Positions 9,469 to 31,498 of a stretch of 31,498 nt of DNA are shown piece after piece (position 1 is the first letter of the stretch; the number at the start of each line of letters is the position of its first letter). The notes beneath the pieces are model-generated. The model had not been told where the DNA came from. It did not search any database and was given only the letters and a program-made list of their open reading frames with translations. This stretch comes from a virus, in the IMG/VR virus record IMGVR_UViG_3300044613_001775, positions 1 to 31,498 of that record. One strand, given 5' to 3'. Both the position numbers and the translations under genes were made by a program.

Positions 9469-9905
9469 TGCCGCATTACACTTCCCTCTTTAATGCTATT
9501 GCTGGTCATATAAAGACGGCGTGGGACGTTGAGACTACCTCCGCGGGTAGAGCAGCCAAACCAACGCCTCAACTTCCAAGAGCGGTAGTCACGCTCGAGA
9601 GTTGTGATCGTAACCAAGCGGGAAGAAGCGTCGAGCAAACATGGACGTTCACGATTGGCGGTGAGTTCGCCTTACCTCTAACTCCCGACCCTCAGCAGTT
9701 TATAGCAAATCAAGCCGAGGCACTCATTGACCTCTTAACCCCGTTCTCGGAAAGTTCTGGAAGTATTCCCACGGTTCCGGCCGCTTTCGGTGGTGTTGGC
9801 TACCAGCCCTTTGTAACAACGTGGACGCCTATCCCAATGGATGACGCCGATAACTCTTGTGGCGTCTTAATTACCTTCACGGCGAGGACTACCGTATGGC
9901 AGTAA
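9468..9905 (+). CDS. Tail terminator or tail completion protein
   Basis: The 145-residue protein begins with a helix (SLFNAIAGHIKTAW) and continues with strands such as RSVEQTWTFTIGGEFAL and a C-terminal strand GVLITFTARTTVW. This helix-plus-sheet layout and the neck position suit tail terminator (gpU-like) proteins that cap the tail tube. The alternative is the other neck completion protein, since the following gene also belongs to this group. It ends overlapping the next start at 9896. Confidence 0.5.
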   Translation: MPHYTSLFNAIAGHIKTAWDVETTSAGRAAKPTPQLPRAVVTLESCDRNQAGRSVEQTWTFTIGGEFALPLTPDPQQFIANQAEALIDLLTPFSESSGSIPTVPAAFGGVGYQPFVTTWTPIPMDDADNSCGVLITFTARTTVWQ

Positions 9906-10432
9906 AGCGAACCCCGACTCAAAGCTACTTTGCGACTATTGAGAAGTTTAAGCAAATCAATGCGAACATGGAAGAGGGTGCGAAGGAGATAAAAAAACAA
10001 ATTGAAGAGGACTTGAAAGAGTTTACAACTGGAGCAAGCCCAAGCGGTAAAAAAGCTCGCCAAAAGTGGTTACGCAAGCTGGGCCACCCTTACGGTCGGG
10101 GTAAAACGTCTGCCTTATCAACTCCAACTGGCAGAAAGCGGGGAGCGGGAAGGAAAGGCAAAGCACCTCAGTTGCCAATGGGTGAAATGTCTGGAAGTCT
10201 TCGGCGTTCAAGGTTCGCAAGATTAACGAAGCCCGGAGGAAGGCATATTATCACGGCGGGGTTCAATAAGAGTGCTAAAGGTGCATTGTTCGCCGTCTTA
10301 CCTAGTGGTACAAAGAAAATGGTCGGAAGAGGTCTCTTCGGAAAGGGAGACCAAGGAGCCTTAGGAAAACGAGTTAAAGAGTACCGCAAAGCCTTTAGAG
10401 ACACTTTTCAAAAGAGAAATAGACAACCATGA
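9896..10432 (+). CDS. Basic HK97 gp10-like neck/tail protein
   Basis: The 178-residue protein is strongly basic, with an N-terminal charged helix (NMEEGAKEIKKQIEEDLKEF), a Lys/Arg-rich middle (SPSGKKARQKW; GRKRGAGRKGKAP) and a C-terminal helix (KRVKEYRKAFRDTF). The helix, the SGSLRRSRF-like segment and the position before the major tail protein fit the HK97 gp10 family of minor structural proteins. I use ATG 9896, which overlaps the previous stop; the frame is open 39 bases further upstream, but that lies within the preceding gene. The basic middle region is unusually long and could contact nucleic acid. Confidence 0.5.
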   Translation: MAVKRTPTQSYFATIEKFKQINANMEEGAKEIKKQIEEDLKEFTTGASPSGKKARQKWLRKLGHPYGRGKTSALSTPTGRKRGAGRKGKAPQLPMGEMSGSLRRSRFARLTKPGGRHIITAGFNKSAKGALFAVLPSGTKKMVGRGLFGKGDQGALGKRVKEYRKAFRDTFQKRNRQP

Positions 10433-11193
10433 AATACGCCGCCGGAGACTTAACAGCATATACACTCGGAGGTACAAGCTACCTTGCCGAGTTTTCTAAC
10501 GTGTCCTTCAAAGTAGGAGTCAAGACTGAGGAGGGCAAAGCGGGAGCCGCTCGCCATGCTCAAAGCACCCCAGTCAAGCGAATGTTTGAAGCTAAGACCG
10601 AGATCATGCGAACCGTGACCTCGACCCGCCAAACCTCGCTGACGCTTACCGTGGCTTCGATTGTGGCAAGCGTCACCGCCAAACTTCGCTCATGCACGAT
10701 CAACGTAACCACCGCCTCTCAAGAGTGCTCGGCACTTGCGGACGGCTTCGAGACTTACCAAGCCACGGGAACCAAATTTACTGGCTCGGGTGTTCTTCAA
10801 ATCTTGGACGCTGACACAACCACGTTAATGGAGACGGTAAACAATGCCACTCTCTCAAGCGTTGAAACTTCGCTCTCTTTGAGCGTTGGTGGCGTGGTGT
10901 TAGTCCTTCCAATCACCTTGACCTCGGCTGAGATTGCGACTGAGCGAGATGGGCTTATTCTTGTTAACATCGAGTTTGAGCAAAGAGGAACCCCGACCAC
11001 CGTTAGCGGTTCAACCCTTCTCACCTCGGTACTCACGGGTACTACCTTGATTGCGTTTGTAGCGACTATTACCACCATTGGAACCTACACGGGCTCCACG
11101 CTGATTGACTCGGCTACATTCACGGTTCCAGAGCAAGGGATTGTGACCGAGCAGTACAACTTCAAAGGACTTGGTACTCTCGTTAAGTCGTAA
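10429..11193 (+). CDS. Major tail protein (tail tube), probable
   Basis: The 254-residue protein is rich in Thr, Ser, Val and Ala, with almost no long helix and many alternating strands (TSLTLTVASIVASV; LSLSVGGVVLVLPITLTS; GLILVNIEFEQRG), as expected for a tube subunit. It follows the neck genes and precedes the tail chaperones, the standard slot for the tube protein. The ending (VTEQYNFKGLGTLV) resembles the last strand of tube proteins. There is no family signature I can name with certainty. It starts as ATGA overlapping the basic neck protein. Confidence 0.72.
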   Translation: MKYAAGDLTAYTLGGTSYLAEFSNVSFKVGVKTEEGKAGAARHAQSTPVKRMFEAKTEIMRTVTSTRQTSLTLTVASIVASVTAKLRSCTINVTTASQECSALADGFETYQATGTKFTGSGVLQILDADTTTLMETVNNATLSSVETSLSLSVGGVVLVLPITLTSAEIATERDGLILVNIEFEQRGTPTTVSGSTLLTSVLTGTTLIAFVATITTIGTYTGSTLIDSATFTVPEQGIVTEQYNFKGLGTLVKS

Positions 11194-11229: not shown

Positions 11230-11346
11230 ATGGCAAAAGAAGAAAAGGTACAAGAACTCGGTGGAGGCTTTAAGCCCGTGAACTGCGAACCAGAAGTTAA
11301 GGAAGAACCCAAGGCAGACAAGCCAGAGGTTAAAGAACAAGCATGA
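11230..11346 (+). CDS. Short charged protein before tail chaperones
   Basis: The 38-residue product begins MAKEEKVQELGGGFKPVN and continues as a Lys/Glu/Pro-rich tail ending in KEQA. It has no hydrophobic core and is likely disordered. A strong AAGGAG site precedes it and its stop overlaps the following ATG at 11343 as ATGA, so it is probably translated and may couple initiation to the tail assembly chaperone. No function is recognised; the composition resembles short Lys/Glu-rich extensions seen near tube proteins. Confidence 0.6.
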   Translation: MAKEEKVQELGGGFKPVNCEPEVKEEPKADKPEVKEQA

Positions 11347-11795
11347 TAGGCGACCTCGTTAGCAAGATTCTTGAGGCGTCAGCACCGCCCTCTGATGAGG
11401 TCGAGATAACAATTATTCGGGACGTGAAGTGCAAGTTCCGAGTGTTGTGCGACCTTGAAGAAAGAATCAAAGTTGAAGAGGAAGTTAAGCGGTGGGCAAC
11501 CGATATGCAGAAGAGCGTACAAGGTGGCCGTCTGATGGGAGAATGGAAAGAGGTTGCGACAGAGAGCCTTGTAATTCTTGCTCAAGTTAAGATGCTGGCA
11601 ATGCTTGCCTTGACTGAGGACTTCCAGAGCGAGCTGGCTTGGCTCACGATTGCGAAGCGGGCGGCTCCGGTGTTTGTGGGTGTTACTACCGCTCTTGATG
11701 AAGCGGCAGCCAATAAAACCTCTGACTATGCGGTTTTCCTTGAGGGAAAAGGCTCCTTGAAGGAAACCCAAATTACGCCCAAAAGTGCCGAGTAG
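11343..11795 (+). CDS. Tail assembly chaperone, short (G-like) form
   Basis: The 150-residue protein sits between the major tail protein and the tape measure, the position of the G-type chaperone in siphophages. These proteins bind the tape measure and bring tail tube subunits during assembly and are absent from the virion. Sequence features are an N-terminal strand region (EVEITIIRDVKCKFRVLC) and a mostly helical remainder. It carries a -1 slippery heptamer at 11744-11750 near its end, giving an extended second product. No other function is suggested by its sequence. Confidence 0.75.
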   Translation: MIGDLVSKILEASAPPSDEVEITIIRDVKCKFRVLCDLEERIKVEEEVKRWATDMQKSVQGGRLMGEWKEVATESLVILAQVKMLAMLALTEDFQSELAWLTIAKRAAPVFVGVTTALDEAAANKTSDYAVFLEGKGSLKETQITPKSAE

Positions 11796-11920
11796 CAGTA
11801 GACGTATACGGTGAATGGTTCGATGATCTCGATGCTCACCGAAAGGTACGGGTGTTGCAGATATGTGCTCTCAATGAGGTCTGCCCACCGAGACCTCAAC
11901 AAGTGATAATGGTAGGTTAA
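11343..11920 (+). CDS. Tail assembly chaperone, -1 frameshift (G-T-like) form
   Basis: A -1 slip on G GGA AAA at 11744-11750 would take ribosomes past the TAG at 11793 into an open frame that ends with TAA at 11918-11920, giving about 192 residues: 136 from frame 0 and 56 from the new frame. The new tail reads RLLEGNPNYAQKC, then VAVDVYGEWFDDLDAHRKV and VLQICALNEVCPPRPQQ, which is ordinary protein-like sequence with no start codon of its own near the slip. An in-frame TGA at 11741-11743 just before the heptamer prevents any earlier entry into this frame. The tape measure starts 3 bases after the stop. The lambda G/GT arrangement is the known precedent. Confidence 0.78.
11744..11750 (+). promoter_or_regulatory. 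Programmed -1 frameshift site G GGA AAA
   Basis: The heptamer GGGAAAA is in the correct register: codons GGA (11745-11747) and AAA (11748-11750) of the chaperone gene can re-pair as GGG and AAA one base back. This is a classical X XXY YYZ sequence. The -1 frame is closed by TGA immediately upstream and open for 168 bases from 11750. Confidence 0.8.
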
Positions 11921-11922
11921 AA

Positions 11923-13596
11923 ATGGCAAGTGTAGTAGTCGAAGAAGTTATCAGTAAGTATATTCTTGATGCATCGAAATTTGAGTCTGGGATGAGCAAG
12001 GTACTCGTCGCCGCTCAAAAAGGGAAGACTATTGCTAGTGGCTTTGGGGAAGGTATCAGCAAGGTTGGGGGATTCCTCAAGAATACAGCCGTTGGAGCTG
12101 GGCTTGCCGCCTTGCCTATTATTGGGCTTGGGGTAACCGCTATTAATGCCGCCGCCGACTTTGATACCTTGAGCCGTTCTTTAACTGGGATGACCAGAGA
12201 TGCAAAAAGAACCGCTGAGATACTTGCCTTCGTGGATCAAATGTCTATACCCTCTATCTTTACGAGTGCTGAGCTTGGAAAGGCTGCCGCATTACTTCAA
12301 GCCTACGGTCTGCAAGTTGAGCAGTTCTTACCAGTAGCGGACGCAATGGCAACGGGAATGGGCATGAGTGCTGAAGGTGTCGATATTGTTATCAGAGCCT
12401 TAGGAAAGTTAAAGTCTGGTAGCTTTGGGGAAGGGTTCCAAGCATTGAGAGATGCCTTCGGCGTCAGCAATGAAGAGCTTGCAAAATTCGGGGCTACGTT
12501 CTCAAAAACCAACGAGTTTACCGGAAGCATTGAAACCGCTCTTGAAAGTGTTCGGCTACTTGCGATTGAGAAGTTTGGAGGTATTGCGAAGGAGATGGCT
12601 GGAGGCCCAGCGGCGGCGATGGCTTCCTTGATGGACAATATAAACCGCTCGATGAGGCAAATTGGACAGACGTTACTTCCTTTGCTTTTACCGATGATTG
12701 AGAAGATAACGAAGGCGTTCGAGACGATGGTCAAAACCGGAGCCTTTGAAAAGATGGTTAACGGGTTGATTAACTTGATTGGCATGGATAAGATTGCCAC
12801 CCAGCTCTATGACACTTTTATCTCCATGAGCGTGGTAGTGGTTAACCTCCCAAGAATCCTTGATGGGGTACGCCGAACTATGGTGACGAGTTTTAACGAG
12901 ATTCGCCAGACCATTATAAATACAGTTGCGGTTCTTGGTGGTCTCCTTTTCAGTACGGCGGTGTTTGTTGGGTTCGCAAGGATAGTTAAGGCAATTCAAG
13001 CGGTAAGTGCCGCCTTCAAAGAGCTTGCTATATCTGAGGCTATTCTTGAAGCGATTGCCACTAAAGGAAAGTCGTTAGTACCCGCCGCTCTTTCTATCTC
13101 GGCGGGTCTTGCTATGGCTCTGGCATTGCAAAAGGGCTTAGACGCTATTATTCCGCAAGTGGCTTTAGGAGATGGAACGGGAGAGACTTTTAACCTTGGG
13201 GAAGAGACTAAGAAGTTCAGAGACCAGCTTGAGAAAAGTGGTGGGGTAGCAACTCAGACAACTAACTTTAGCTCAGCACTTGACCAAGTTATAGGCAACC
13301 TTGAGAACAAGCAGAAGAGCGGTGGAGCATTGCAGAACATTGCAACCAATACCAAGGCGACCGCCGAAAACACCCAGAAGTTGGCAGACATTCAAGACCA
13401 GATTTTAGGCGGCGGTTCACTCGGAAGCCGTGGTTTATCCAGACAAGAGTTGAGCGACATCCAGACGGGTAGAGGGGCAAGTGGAACCCGTGAAATCAAG
13501 ACCATTCTGGTTGAGCTTGGAGTTGCGATTGAGCGGGGCATGAGCAGAACAGCGGCGAGAGCGATTGGTAACAACGTCTCACGGCGGGAGGTTTAA
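11923..13596 (+). CDS. Tail tape measure protein
   Basis: The 557-residue protein is mainly helical, with an N-terminal region (VISKYILDASKFESGMSKVL) typical of tape measures. It has several hydrophobic segments (GAGLAALPIIGLGVTAINAA; TLLPLLLPMIEKI; VAVLGGLLFSTAVFVGFA; LVPAALSISAGLAMALAL) and a helical C-terminus. Tape measures fix tail length and help DNA entry. At about 0.15 nm per residue this predicts a tail near 80 nm, short for a siphovirus. No lytic domain is seen. It follows the chaperones by 2 bases and overlaps the next gene as TAATG. Confidence 0.9.
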   Translation: MASVVVEEVISKYILDASKFESGMSKVLVAAQKGKTIASGFGEGISKVGGFLKNTAVGAGLAALPIIGLGVTAINAAADFDTLSRSLTGMTRDAKRTAEILAFVDQMSIPSIFTSAELGKAAALLQAYGLQVEQFLPVADAMATGMGMSAEGVDIVIRALGKLKSGSFGEGFQALRDAFGVSNEELAKFGATFSKTNEFTGSIETALESVRLLAIEKFGGIAKEMAGGPAAAMASLMDNINRSMRQIGQTLLPLLLPMIEKITKAFETMVKTGAFEKMVNGLINLIGMDKIATQLYDTFISMSVVVVNLPRILDGVRRTMVTSFNEIRQTIINTVAVLGGLLFSTAVFVGFARIVKAIQAVSAAFKELAISEAILEAIATKGKSLVPAALSISAGLAMALALQKGLDAIIPQVALGDGTGETFNLGEETKKFRDQLEKSGGVATQTTNFSSALDQVIGNLENKQKSGGALQNIATNTKATAENTQKLADIQDQILGGGSLGSRGLSRQELSDIQTGRGASGTREIKTILVELGVAIERGMSRTAARAIGNNVSRREV

Positions 13597-29812: not shown

Positions 29813-30349
29813 ATGAATAACGCCCAAGCAATTACCGAGGTTCGAGCTATCTTGAATCGGCGTTATCAAAATTACAACCAGCTTCCCAACTCAGAGCGGG
29901 TACTTCTTGCCGCCGCCGTTCTTGCCGATGACATCCAAGTTAGAGAGGTTGGCGGGAATAATAATGGTGAGTGGGTTGAGGCGATACTTGAGGGTGTCAA
30001 GTTAGGCGAAGGGTATCCATGGTGTGCCGCCTTCATTGAGTTTTGTTGCGATGTAGCGGGGTTTACTGCTGGCCCCACCGACCGAGCCTCTGCCGCCGTT
30101 GATTCATGGCTGACGTGGGCAAGGATGGAAGGGCGGGTAACAAGCAATCCCAAGCGTGGAGACTTATGCCTCTGGAAGCGTTCAACGGGTAACCATATTG
30201 GTATAGTCACCGATTTGACGATCACGAGCGTGATGAGTATTGAGGGCAACACCACGCCGGGAGCGACTGGCAATCAGCGAGACGGTGGAGGGTGCTATCG
30301 ACGTACACGCCTCAGAAACTCTTGGACGCACTTTATTTCACTAGGATAA
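29813..30349 (+). CDS. CHAP-type endolysin, complete copy
   Basis: This is the complete 178-residue peptidoglycan hydrolase. The N-terminal helical region (about 1-45) precedes the papain-like fold with Cys71 in YPWCAAF, His128 in TGNHIGIV and the Glu144-Gly-Asn146 segment, the usual Cys-His-polar active site of CHAP amidases/endopeptidases. There is no signal peptide, so release depends on a holin, and no separate wall-binding domain. I chose ATG 29813; a GTG three codons upstream is in frame but overlaps a TATAGT. It opens the late block, which is unusual since lysis genes are commonly late-distal. A truncated strain copy is at 1-428. Confidence 0.82.
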   Translation: MNNAQAITEVRAILNRRYQNYNQLPNSERVLLAAAVLADDIQVREVGGNNNGEWVEAILEGVKLGEGYPWCAAFIEFCCDVAGFTAGPTDRASAAVDSWLTWARMEGRVTSNPKRGDLCLWKRSTGNHIGIVTDLTITSVMSIEGNTTPGATGNQRDGGGCYRRTRLRNSWTHFISLG

Positions 30350-30353
30350 TCTT

Positions 30354-30584
30354 ATGGCAACCGAACCACCAAGTAACGACTTCTTCACCGGCTTATCTGG
30401 CTTTCTCTCAAGTACCTTCGGCTGGTTATCAACCGTTATTCTAGGCATCTTCGGGGGTGGCAAATTGCACCAGCGAATAGTACAACTTGAAAAGGATTCG
30501 GAGGGGCTTTCTGGTCTCGCCGTACAAGTGGCAAAGATAGAGGCGAAGATAGACATTCTCCTCGACGACCGTAAGCGGGGGTAA
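30354..30584 (+). CDS. Small membrane/coiled-coil protein, second copy
   Basis: The 76-residue product is identical to that at 436-666 except for one Ile/Leu difference in the hydrophobic segment. It starts 4 bases after the endolysin stop, whereas the left copy has a 7-base gap. It has the same single hydrophobic segment followed by a coiled-coil-like helix. It ends TAA, in frame with the following metallophosphoesterase and with no standard start codon between them. Confidence 0.7.
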   Translation: MATEPPSNDFFTGLSGFLSSTFGWLSTVILGIFGGGKLHQRIVQLEKDSEGLSGLAVQVAKIEAKIDILLDDRKRG

Positions 30585-30587
30585 CCC

Positions 30588-31451
30588 ATTAATAATATCA
30601 AGACAACTCTTGAGATAACAGCCAAAGAGCCAAAAGTCCGACTTGGACTACTTTCTGACCTCCACTTTGGAGCCTCTTGCATGGTCAAGCCAGCACTCAA
30701 GTACGACCTCGAGAGAATGGCTGCCAGCAACTGCCGAATCGGGATTAACGGCGACGTGTTTGATTTTATTTTGCCGAGCGACCTTAAACGATTCGACCTC
30801 GACGCTCTTGATCGTGAACTCCTCCAAGGCGGACTTAAACCCATTGATGCCGCAATCGAAATGGCTTACGAGTTCTTGAAGCCGTATGCCCATTTAATTG
30901 AGTTTATAGGCATTGGCAACCACGAAGCCCACGTCTCCAAGCGACACCATATAGACGTGATGAGCATCTTGCTATACCGCTTGAATCAACTACCTAACGT
31001 AGAGGTTAAGGCGGGAGGGTGGTGTGGTTATTGGAACGTGACACTCAAGAGGCAAACCCGCTTAACAAACTTTCTCATGTACAGACACCACGGGGCGGGC
31101 GGGGCGGCTCCAGTTACTAAGGGAATCATTGACTTTCAGAGAATGTTAGCTTGGCAAGGGGACGTAGACGCCCTCTGGATTGGTCACAAGCACAACAAGT
31201 TTATTGACTTGGCCACCAAGATGGAATACCGCACCAAGAGGAACGAGGCACGTACCAAACAAGTCACTTGCATTATGACTGGAAGCTACCTCTCGACCTA
31301 TGGAACAGAGGCGGGAACCAATCCGAGTTATGCTCAAGCGTGGAATCTTGCCCCTCAGCAGTTTGGAGGGGTTATACTTGAATTGTCACAGAGAGAGTTT
31401 TATGTCGGCAAAGAGCAGACAGTAACCGTACAATGTACGGCTATCTTGTAA
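30588..31451 (+). CDS. Metallophosphoesterase, second copy, noncanonical start
   Basis: The product from the first in-frame ATG (30681) has 256 residues and differs from the left copy at only two positions (Ile/Val and Val/Ile). The first metal-binding motif SDLHFG lies before that ATG, encoded by codons that differ silently from the left copy. The candidate start at 30588 is ATT, where the other copy has ATC. The other motifs, NGDVFDF, GNHEAH and GHKHNK, are intact. The strong silent-to-replacement bias shows purifying selection on the enzyme. Confidence 0.72.
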   Translation: MNNIKTTLEITAKEPKVRLGLLSDLHFGASCMVKPALKYDLERMAASNCRIGINGDVFDFILPSDLKRFDLDALDRELLQGGLKPIDAAIEMAYEFLKPYAHLIEFIGIGNHEAHVSKRHHIDVMSILLYRLNQLPNVEVKAGGWCGYWNVTLKRQTRLTNFLMYRHHGAGGAAPVTKGIIDFQRMLAWQGDVDALWIGHKHNKFIDLATKMEYRTKRNEARTKQVTCIMTGSYLSTYGTEAGTNPSYAQAWNLAPQQFGGVILELSQREFYVGKEQTVTVQCTAIL

Positions 31452-31465
31452 GGGAACCTAACAAA

Positions 31466-31498
31466 ATGAATGAACTATTAAAGAAAATAATTGCCGGG
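31466..31498 (+). CDS. Candidate holin, 3'-truncated by window end
   Basis: The first 11 codons (MNELLKKIIAG) of the small membrane protein are present, with one Val/Leu change from the copy at 1546. The leader here has two extra A bases before the ATG. Confidence 0.6.
   Translation, partial: MNELLKKIIAG

Follow-up and report, generated by a model that had tools for sequence, protein, structure and literature searches.

A probable programmed −1 frameshift in the tail-assembly chaperone gene of an unclassified phage and its relatives

The window of this study is IMG/VR virus record IMGVR_UViG_3300044613_001775, positions 1–31,498, the whole stretch of DNA that was analysed. In this small siphovirus-like phage, the open reading frame (ORF) directly 5′ of the tape-measure gene very probably encodes a tail-assembly chaperone of the lambda G/GT type, made in a short and a long form by −1 frameshifting. 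Both reading frames show selection at the protein level, with the switch between them at a slippery heptamer, G GGA AAA. A programmed −1 frameshift in a tail chaperone gene had been proposed at this place from the letters of the DNA (the sequence-only reading); the proposal was supported by selection and by relatives, and gene order and design indicate that the product is probably a chaperone. The parts of the recoding site are as follows.

11343–11795, + strand: frame-0 ORF (ATG 11343 to TAG 11795), predicted short tail-assembly chaperone (lambda gpG-like), 150 amino acids (aa); conserved in 10 other full-length IMG/VR loci
11741–11743, + strand: TGA of the −1 frame, directly 5′ of the heptamer; present, not conserved
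11744–11750, + strand: slippery heptamer G GGA AAA; identified by its register, its retention in relatives and the substitution change point
11750–11920, + strand: predicted lambda T-like extension in the −1 frame, 56 codons and a TAA stop, giving a fusion of 192 aa; open in all loci
11793–11795, + strand: frame-0 stop TAG of the short product, from the reading frame

The frame-0 reading at 11744–11750 was GAG GGA AAA GGC, and the X XXY YYZ register fits GGGAAAA, as the sequence-only reading had stated. The 168-base open −1 frame that it described up to the tape measure was also found: the frame is free of stops over 11750–11917 (168 nt, 56 codons), ends with TAA at 11918–11920 and is separated by two bases from the tape-measure ATG at 11923. 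The 127 nt noted between the frame-0 stop and the tape-measure gene correspond to 11796–11922. In 30 plus-strand ORFs chosen from the window's ORF list, 17 in-frame X XXY YYZ heptamers were counted, and one of the 17, that at 11744–11750, has a −1 frame passing the stop of its gene. When the codons of the gene and the downstream bases were permuted, 39 of 20,000 shuffles gave a heptamer with a −1 frame extending at least 120 nt beyond the stop.

Scans of IMG/VR revealed 12 other contigs with a chaperone of this type (family A), including 10 that are full-length across the site, one lacking the 5′ part (L020) and one ending before the site (L015). The window and these 10 make up the 11 full-length loci; L020 was counted for heptamer and extension only, and L015, L028 and L037, which are cut before the site, were left out of the counts. 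Contigs appearing under several locus ids were counted once (e.g., L001/L004/L008/L016/L029, L002/L005/L011/L017/L032, and L006/L010/L025). Together with four loci of a second type (family B, see below) and one named cyanophage, Synechococcus phage Sc-Yong805-2, the window and the 11 other family A loci (one 5′-cut) gave 17 records with the region. In all 17, frame 0 carried a heptamer in register close to its 3′ end, and from there the −1 frame was open to just before the next (tape-measure) gene; thus, neither a broken −1 frame nor loss of the heptamer, named beforehand as what would speak against the frameshift, was seen. Counted from the first base of the stop codon that ends the extension, the next ATG was 2–15 nt downstream in 16/16 loci measured.

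Within family A, the heptamer was GGGAAAA in 3 of the 11 full-length loci (window, L008, and L011) and AAAAAAA in the remaining 8 (L009, L010, L012, L013, L014, L018, L019, and L021), with L020 likewise AAAAAAA. Accordingly, of the proposed G GGA AAA site, the slippery heptamer was always kept, but its letters vary. Other slippery sites in frame 0, AAAGGGC or AAAGGGA (codon 52) and TTTGGGC (codon 75) in family A and TTTGGGG and CCCTTTA in family B, were rejected as not conserved. The TGA placed directly upstream in the −1 frame is present in the window, but L014 lacks any stop in this frame from relative base 222 up to the heptamer; because this TGA is not conserved, it is not part of the signal. 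Fusion length was exactly 192 aa in all 11 full-length loci, whereas frame 0 stopped after codon 150, 138 or 140, never more than 16 codons from the heptamer, indicating that the tail of the short product is free to vary and the −1 frame is not. In seven aligned loci, identity to the window was 93, 89, 66, 68, 63, 63, and 64% for the extension and 74, 69, 64, 65, 60, 59, and 59%, respectively, for frame 0. Such a layout could also arise if a base lost or gained in sequencing or assembly had split a single 192-aa gene and made the two frames meaningless, and homopolymer-rich sites are where errors of this kind occur. However, 17/17 records, drawn from different assemblies and with a named GenBank phage among them, show the same arrangement. 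In every case a slippery heptamer sits at the break, and in family A the frame-0 stop is always reached within the 16 codons mentioned; an error of this kind has next to no probability.

Selection on the two frames was estimated as the ratio of nonsynonymous to synonymous differences (pN/pS) in the 8 of 11 full-length family A loci known at that time, and a change-point analysis was made on all 11. Frame 0 had a pN/pS of 0.27 upstream of the heptamer and 1.04 past its own stop, whereas the −1 frame went from 1.60 to 0.24 over the same two segments, in agreement with the earlier description of the extension as protein-like. Within the overlap, the −1 frame was constrained (0.33) and frame 0 was not (1.09). 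Along the locus, the fast-changing (wobble) codon position is first that of frame 0 and later that of the −1 frame. The change point was best placed, without use of the motif, at relative bases 403–404 (window 11745–11746), inside the heptamer (402–408). Codon choice also favours the site: its lysine codon is AAA, whereas the share of AAA among lysine codons of the tape-measure genes was only 27% in the window, 23% in L008, and 7% in L011; it was 70% in L009 and 36–56% in the other family A loci measured.

The same data bear on a rival reading in which the extension would be a small gene in its own right, with a start codon used by ribosomes that re-initiate after the frame-0 stop. The record of Sc-Yong805-2 annotates it in this way, as a 50-aa gene from an internal ATG; GTG or TTG codons occur in the −1 frame of several relatives, and that of L014 contains an ATG far upstream. 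On the other hand, the first ATG/GTG/TTG in the window's extension is at relative base 510, 34 codons in, and in the window, L008, and L011 this position is past the most conserved block, CRVAVDVYGEWFDDL; the claim that the extension lacks its own start was thus upheld. No start position 5′ of CRVAVDVYGEWFDDL is common to all loci, and it is from the heptamer onwards, within the frame-0 overlap, that the −1 frame is constrained. From the pN/pS values, the change point, and the lack of a common early start codon, a chance ORF is excluded and an independent gene is very unlikely.

A further explanation of the shift is slippage of RNA polymerase, not of ribosomes, on the A run. Runs of eight or nine A, a length that allows polymerase slippage, are present in L009, L010, L012–L014, L018–L021, L027, L030, and L031. 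However, the window, L008, L011, and L036 have the same architecture on GGGAAAA with only four A, Sc-Yong805-2 has six A (A AAA AAC), and the X XXY YYZ register is kept in 17/17 records. Transcriptional slippage is possible for the relatives with eight or nine A and unlikely for the window with four; as the source of the shift in general, we give it very little credence.

In the ribosomal frameshift that we favour, most ribosomes would stop at TAG 11795 and yield the 150-aa short chaperone. A minority, holding GGA and AAA in the P and A sites, respectively, would move back by one base on the heptamer G GGA AAA, now reading GGG AAA followed by AGG CTC, and would finish the 192-aa long form at TAA 11920. 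By analogy to lambda, the short form would coat the tape-measure protein and the extension would recruit the tail-tube protein, and the ratio of short to long form would be set by the slip rate, as in the lambda-type family. PMC5009743 describes lambda gpG and gpGT as binding the tape measure and the T part as binding the tail-tube protein, and −1 frameshifting in tail-assembly chaperones is treated as an established mechanism in PMC5009743 and PMC10885494.

Several observations weigh against this interpretation. Neither the chaperone nor the fusion had a convincing PHROG or Pfam match. The structure model of the frame-0 product, with a predicted local distance difference test score (pLDDT) of 49.6, was too poor to use. 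No stimulatory RNA structure was found, the 100 nt 3′ of the site folding no better than shuffles in 8/8 loci (z from +0.75 to −1.14). Moreover, A AAA AAA is less shifty than A AAA AAG in E. coli, as reported in PMC5009743. There, known tail-assembly chaperone families are described as sharing low sequence similarity while the mechanism is conserved. The chaperone types had no match in the phage collection at tblastn sensitivity. The extension gave a better model (pLDDT 82.5, two helices). Comparison of structures with PDB returned no entry with Z of 5 or more; the entries for the frame-0 model (best Z 4.8) are meaningless given its mean pLDDT of 49.6, and those for the extension model (best Z 3.9) named no relative.

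The genes next to the chaperone are as follows.

10429–11193, + strand: probable major tail protein, 254 aa; from position only, adjoining the chaperone in relatives
11230–11346, + strand: small ORF of 38 aa, its stop codon overlapping the ATG of the chaperone in ATGA
11923–13596, + strand: tape-measure protein, 557 aa; PHROG phrog_1533, tail length tape measure protein, E value 1.8e-5

The product of 10429–11193 had no PHROG or Pfam match and was named by position. Lying between the tail protein and the chaperone, the 38-aa ORF is charged and contains a GGGFKPVNC stretch; a comparable small ORF is found at the same place in L027, L036, and Sc-Yong805-2. By eye, an AGG/AGGA-like stretch is seen just before the tape-measure start (window 11909–11923), within the codons that end the extension (GTA GGT TAA; in family B, ATA GGA TGA); these codons may double as the ribosome-binding site of the tape-measure gene.

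Family B came from an IMG/VR scan with the probable major tail protein, which was 96–97% identical in L027, L030, and L031 (also in L028, cut short) and 71% identical in L036. The protein in the chaperone slot of these contigs had no tblastn match to the window's chaperone, and profile comparison (hhalign) of families A and B showed a remote similarity (probability 59, E value 9e-5, 21% identity over 164 columns). In 4/4 loci, a heptamer was in register, AAAAAAA in L027, L030, and L031 and GGGAAAA in L036. The −1 extension has 63 or 65 codons, giving fusions of 202–205 aa versus 192 aa in family A, and its stop codon begins 6–7 nt 5′ of the tape-measure ATG. In the −1 frame, L027 compared with L030/L031 gave pN 0.04 and pS 0.53–0.61, and L027/L030/L031 compared with L036 gave pN 0.29 and pS 0.73–0.85. 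A further scan with family B yielded no additional contigs.

DNA of L027 is 91% identical to that of the window up to 11347 (chaperone start), then shows no similarity, and returns at 13360 with 90%, indicating a joint exchange of the tape-measure body and both chaperone frames. In the 16 loci compared, the type of tape measure tracks that of the chaperone, with normalised scores between A and B of at most 0.24. Nevertheless, the coupling of the two types is suggestive only, since scores within family A also fall to about 0.2 and L008 keeps a type A chaperone with most of its tape-measure gene having no DNA match to that of the window. Strict co-evolution of chaperone and tape measure, which was also considered, is only partly supported, as the tape measure of L008 differs. 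We tentatively suggest, as a possibility on the doubtful side, that the chaperone (both frames and heptamer) and the tape-measure body form one exchangeable cassette, with its left edge at the chaperone start codon and its right edge near 13360, and that the shared extension residues R-(V/I)-A..VY....D-(D/E)-L mark a surface docking on the tail protein. They would mark such a surface because the tail protein served is almost identical between phages whose chaperones are of these two very distant types. The swap of chaperone and tape measure under a 96–97% identical tail protein is a natural experiment on partner recognition by the long form.

Sc-Yong805-2 (OR075997.1) was the only match to the window's tail protein in 50,697 phage records, and a weak one (28% over half, E value 8e-4). 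In its 137-aa ORF, A AAA AAC occurs at codon 134; the −1 extension that follows is 61 codons long and ends at the start of the next large gene. This extension has the pattern around VY....DDL in common with families A and B. The 137-aa ORF and the large gene had no PHROG match, and the extension matched only PHROGs of unknown function. The best terminase match of the window was Microcystis phage Mae-JY24 (47%); the best capsid-protein match, Streptomyces phage Chymera (32%), points away from a cyanobacterial host. The genome contigs searched for a host held nothing related to the fusion or the tail protein, and with this terminase match and the Synechococcus phage match of the tail protein as pointers, a cyanobacterial host is only a guess. 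In Mae-JY24 (L007), the ORF at 9831–10451, which precedes a large tail-like gene, holds in-frame GGGTTTT and TTTTTTA, and a −1 frame stays open for 155 nt beyond its stop; this is possibly another unannotated chaperone frameshift. The window ends, 1–1578 and 29922–31498, repeat each other imperfectly (89.8% identity, 1580 columns, 156 mismatches, 5 gap positions), including a 256-aa ORF (763–1533 and 30681–31451); either assembly has joined two strain variants here, or the repeat is a terminal one that has diverged.

The window phage belongs to a group of unclassified phages, on which a literature search, made also for Sc-Yong805-2, found no paper. The mechanism is well known; the chaperone types A and B are absent from PHROGs and Pfam, and automatic annotation would therefore miss the long product, as happened in at least one named cyanophage record, that of Sc-Yong805-2. 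A recoding site read from raw sequence has thus been confirmed with strong comparative evidence, and two chaperone types have been added.

In comparison with other systems, family B (L027, L030, L031, and L036) uses the same slot and the same two heptamers as the window, with a chaperone that is only remotely similar. Sc-Yong805-2 (WNA09302.1, WNA09301.1) resembles the window in its order of tail protein, small ORF, chaperone-like ORF, −1 extension, and next large gene, and differs in its A AAA AAC heptamer, in having two hypothetical genes without a joined coding sequence, and in a very distant frame-0 part. Unlike lambda G/GT, the window proteins could not be linked by sequence to a named family of chaperones, and the heptamers here are GGGAAAA or AAAAAAA, that of lambda being GGGAAAG. 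Like lambda G/GT, the extension in the window has no start of its own, and a short and a long product are implied.
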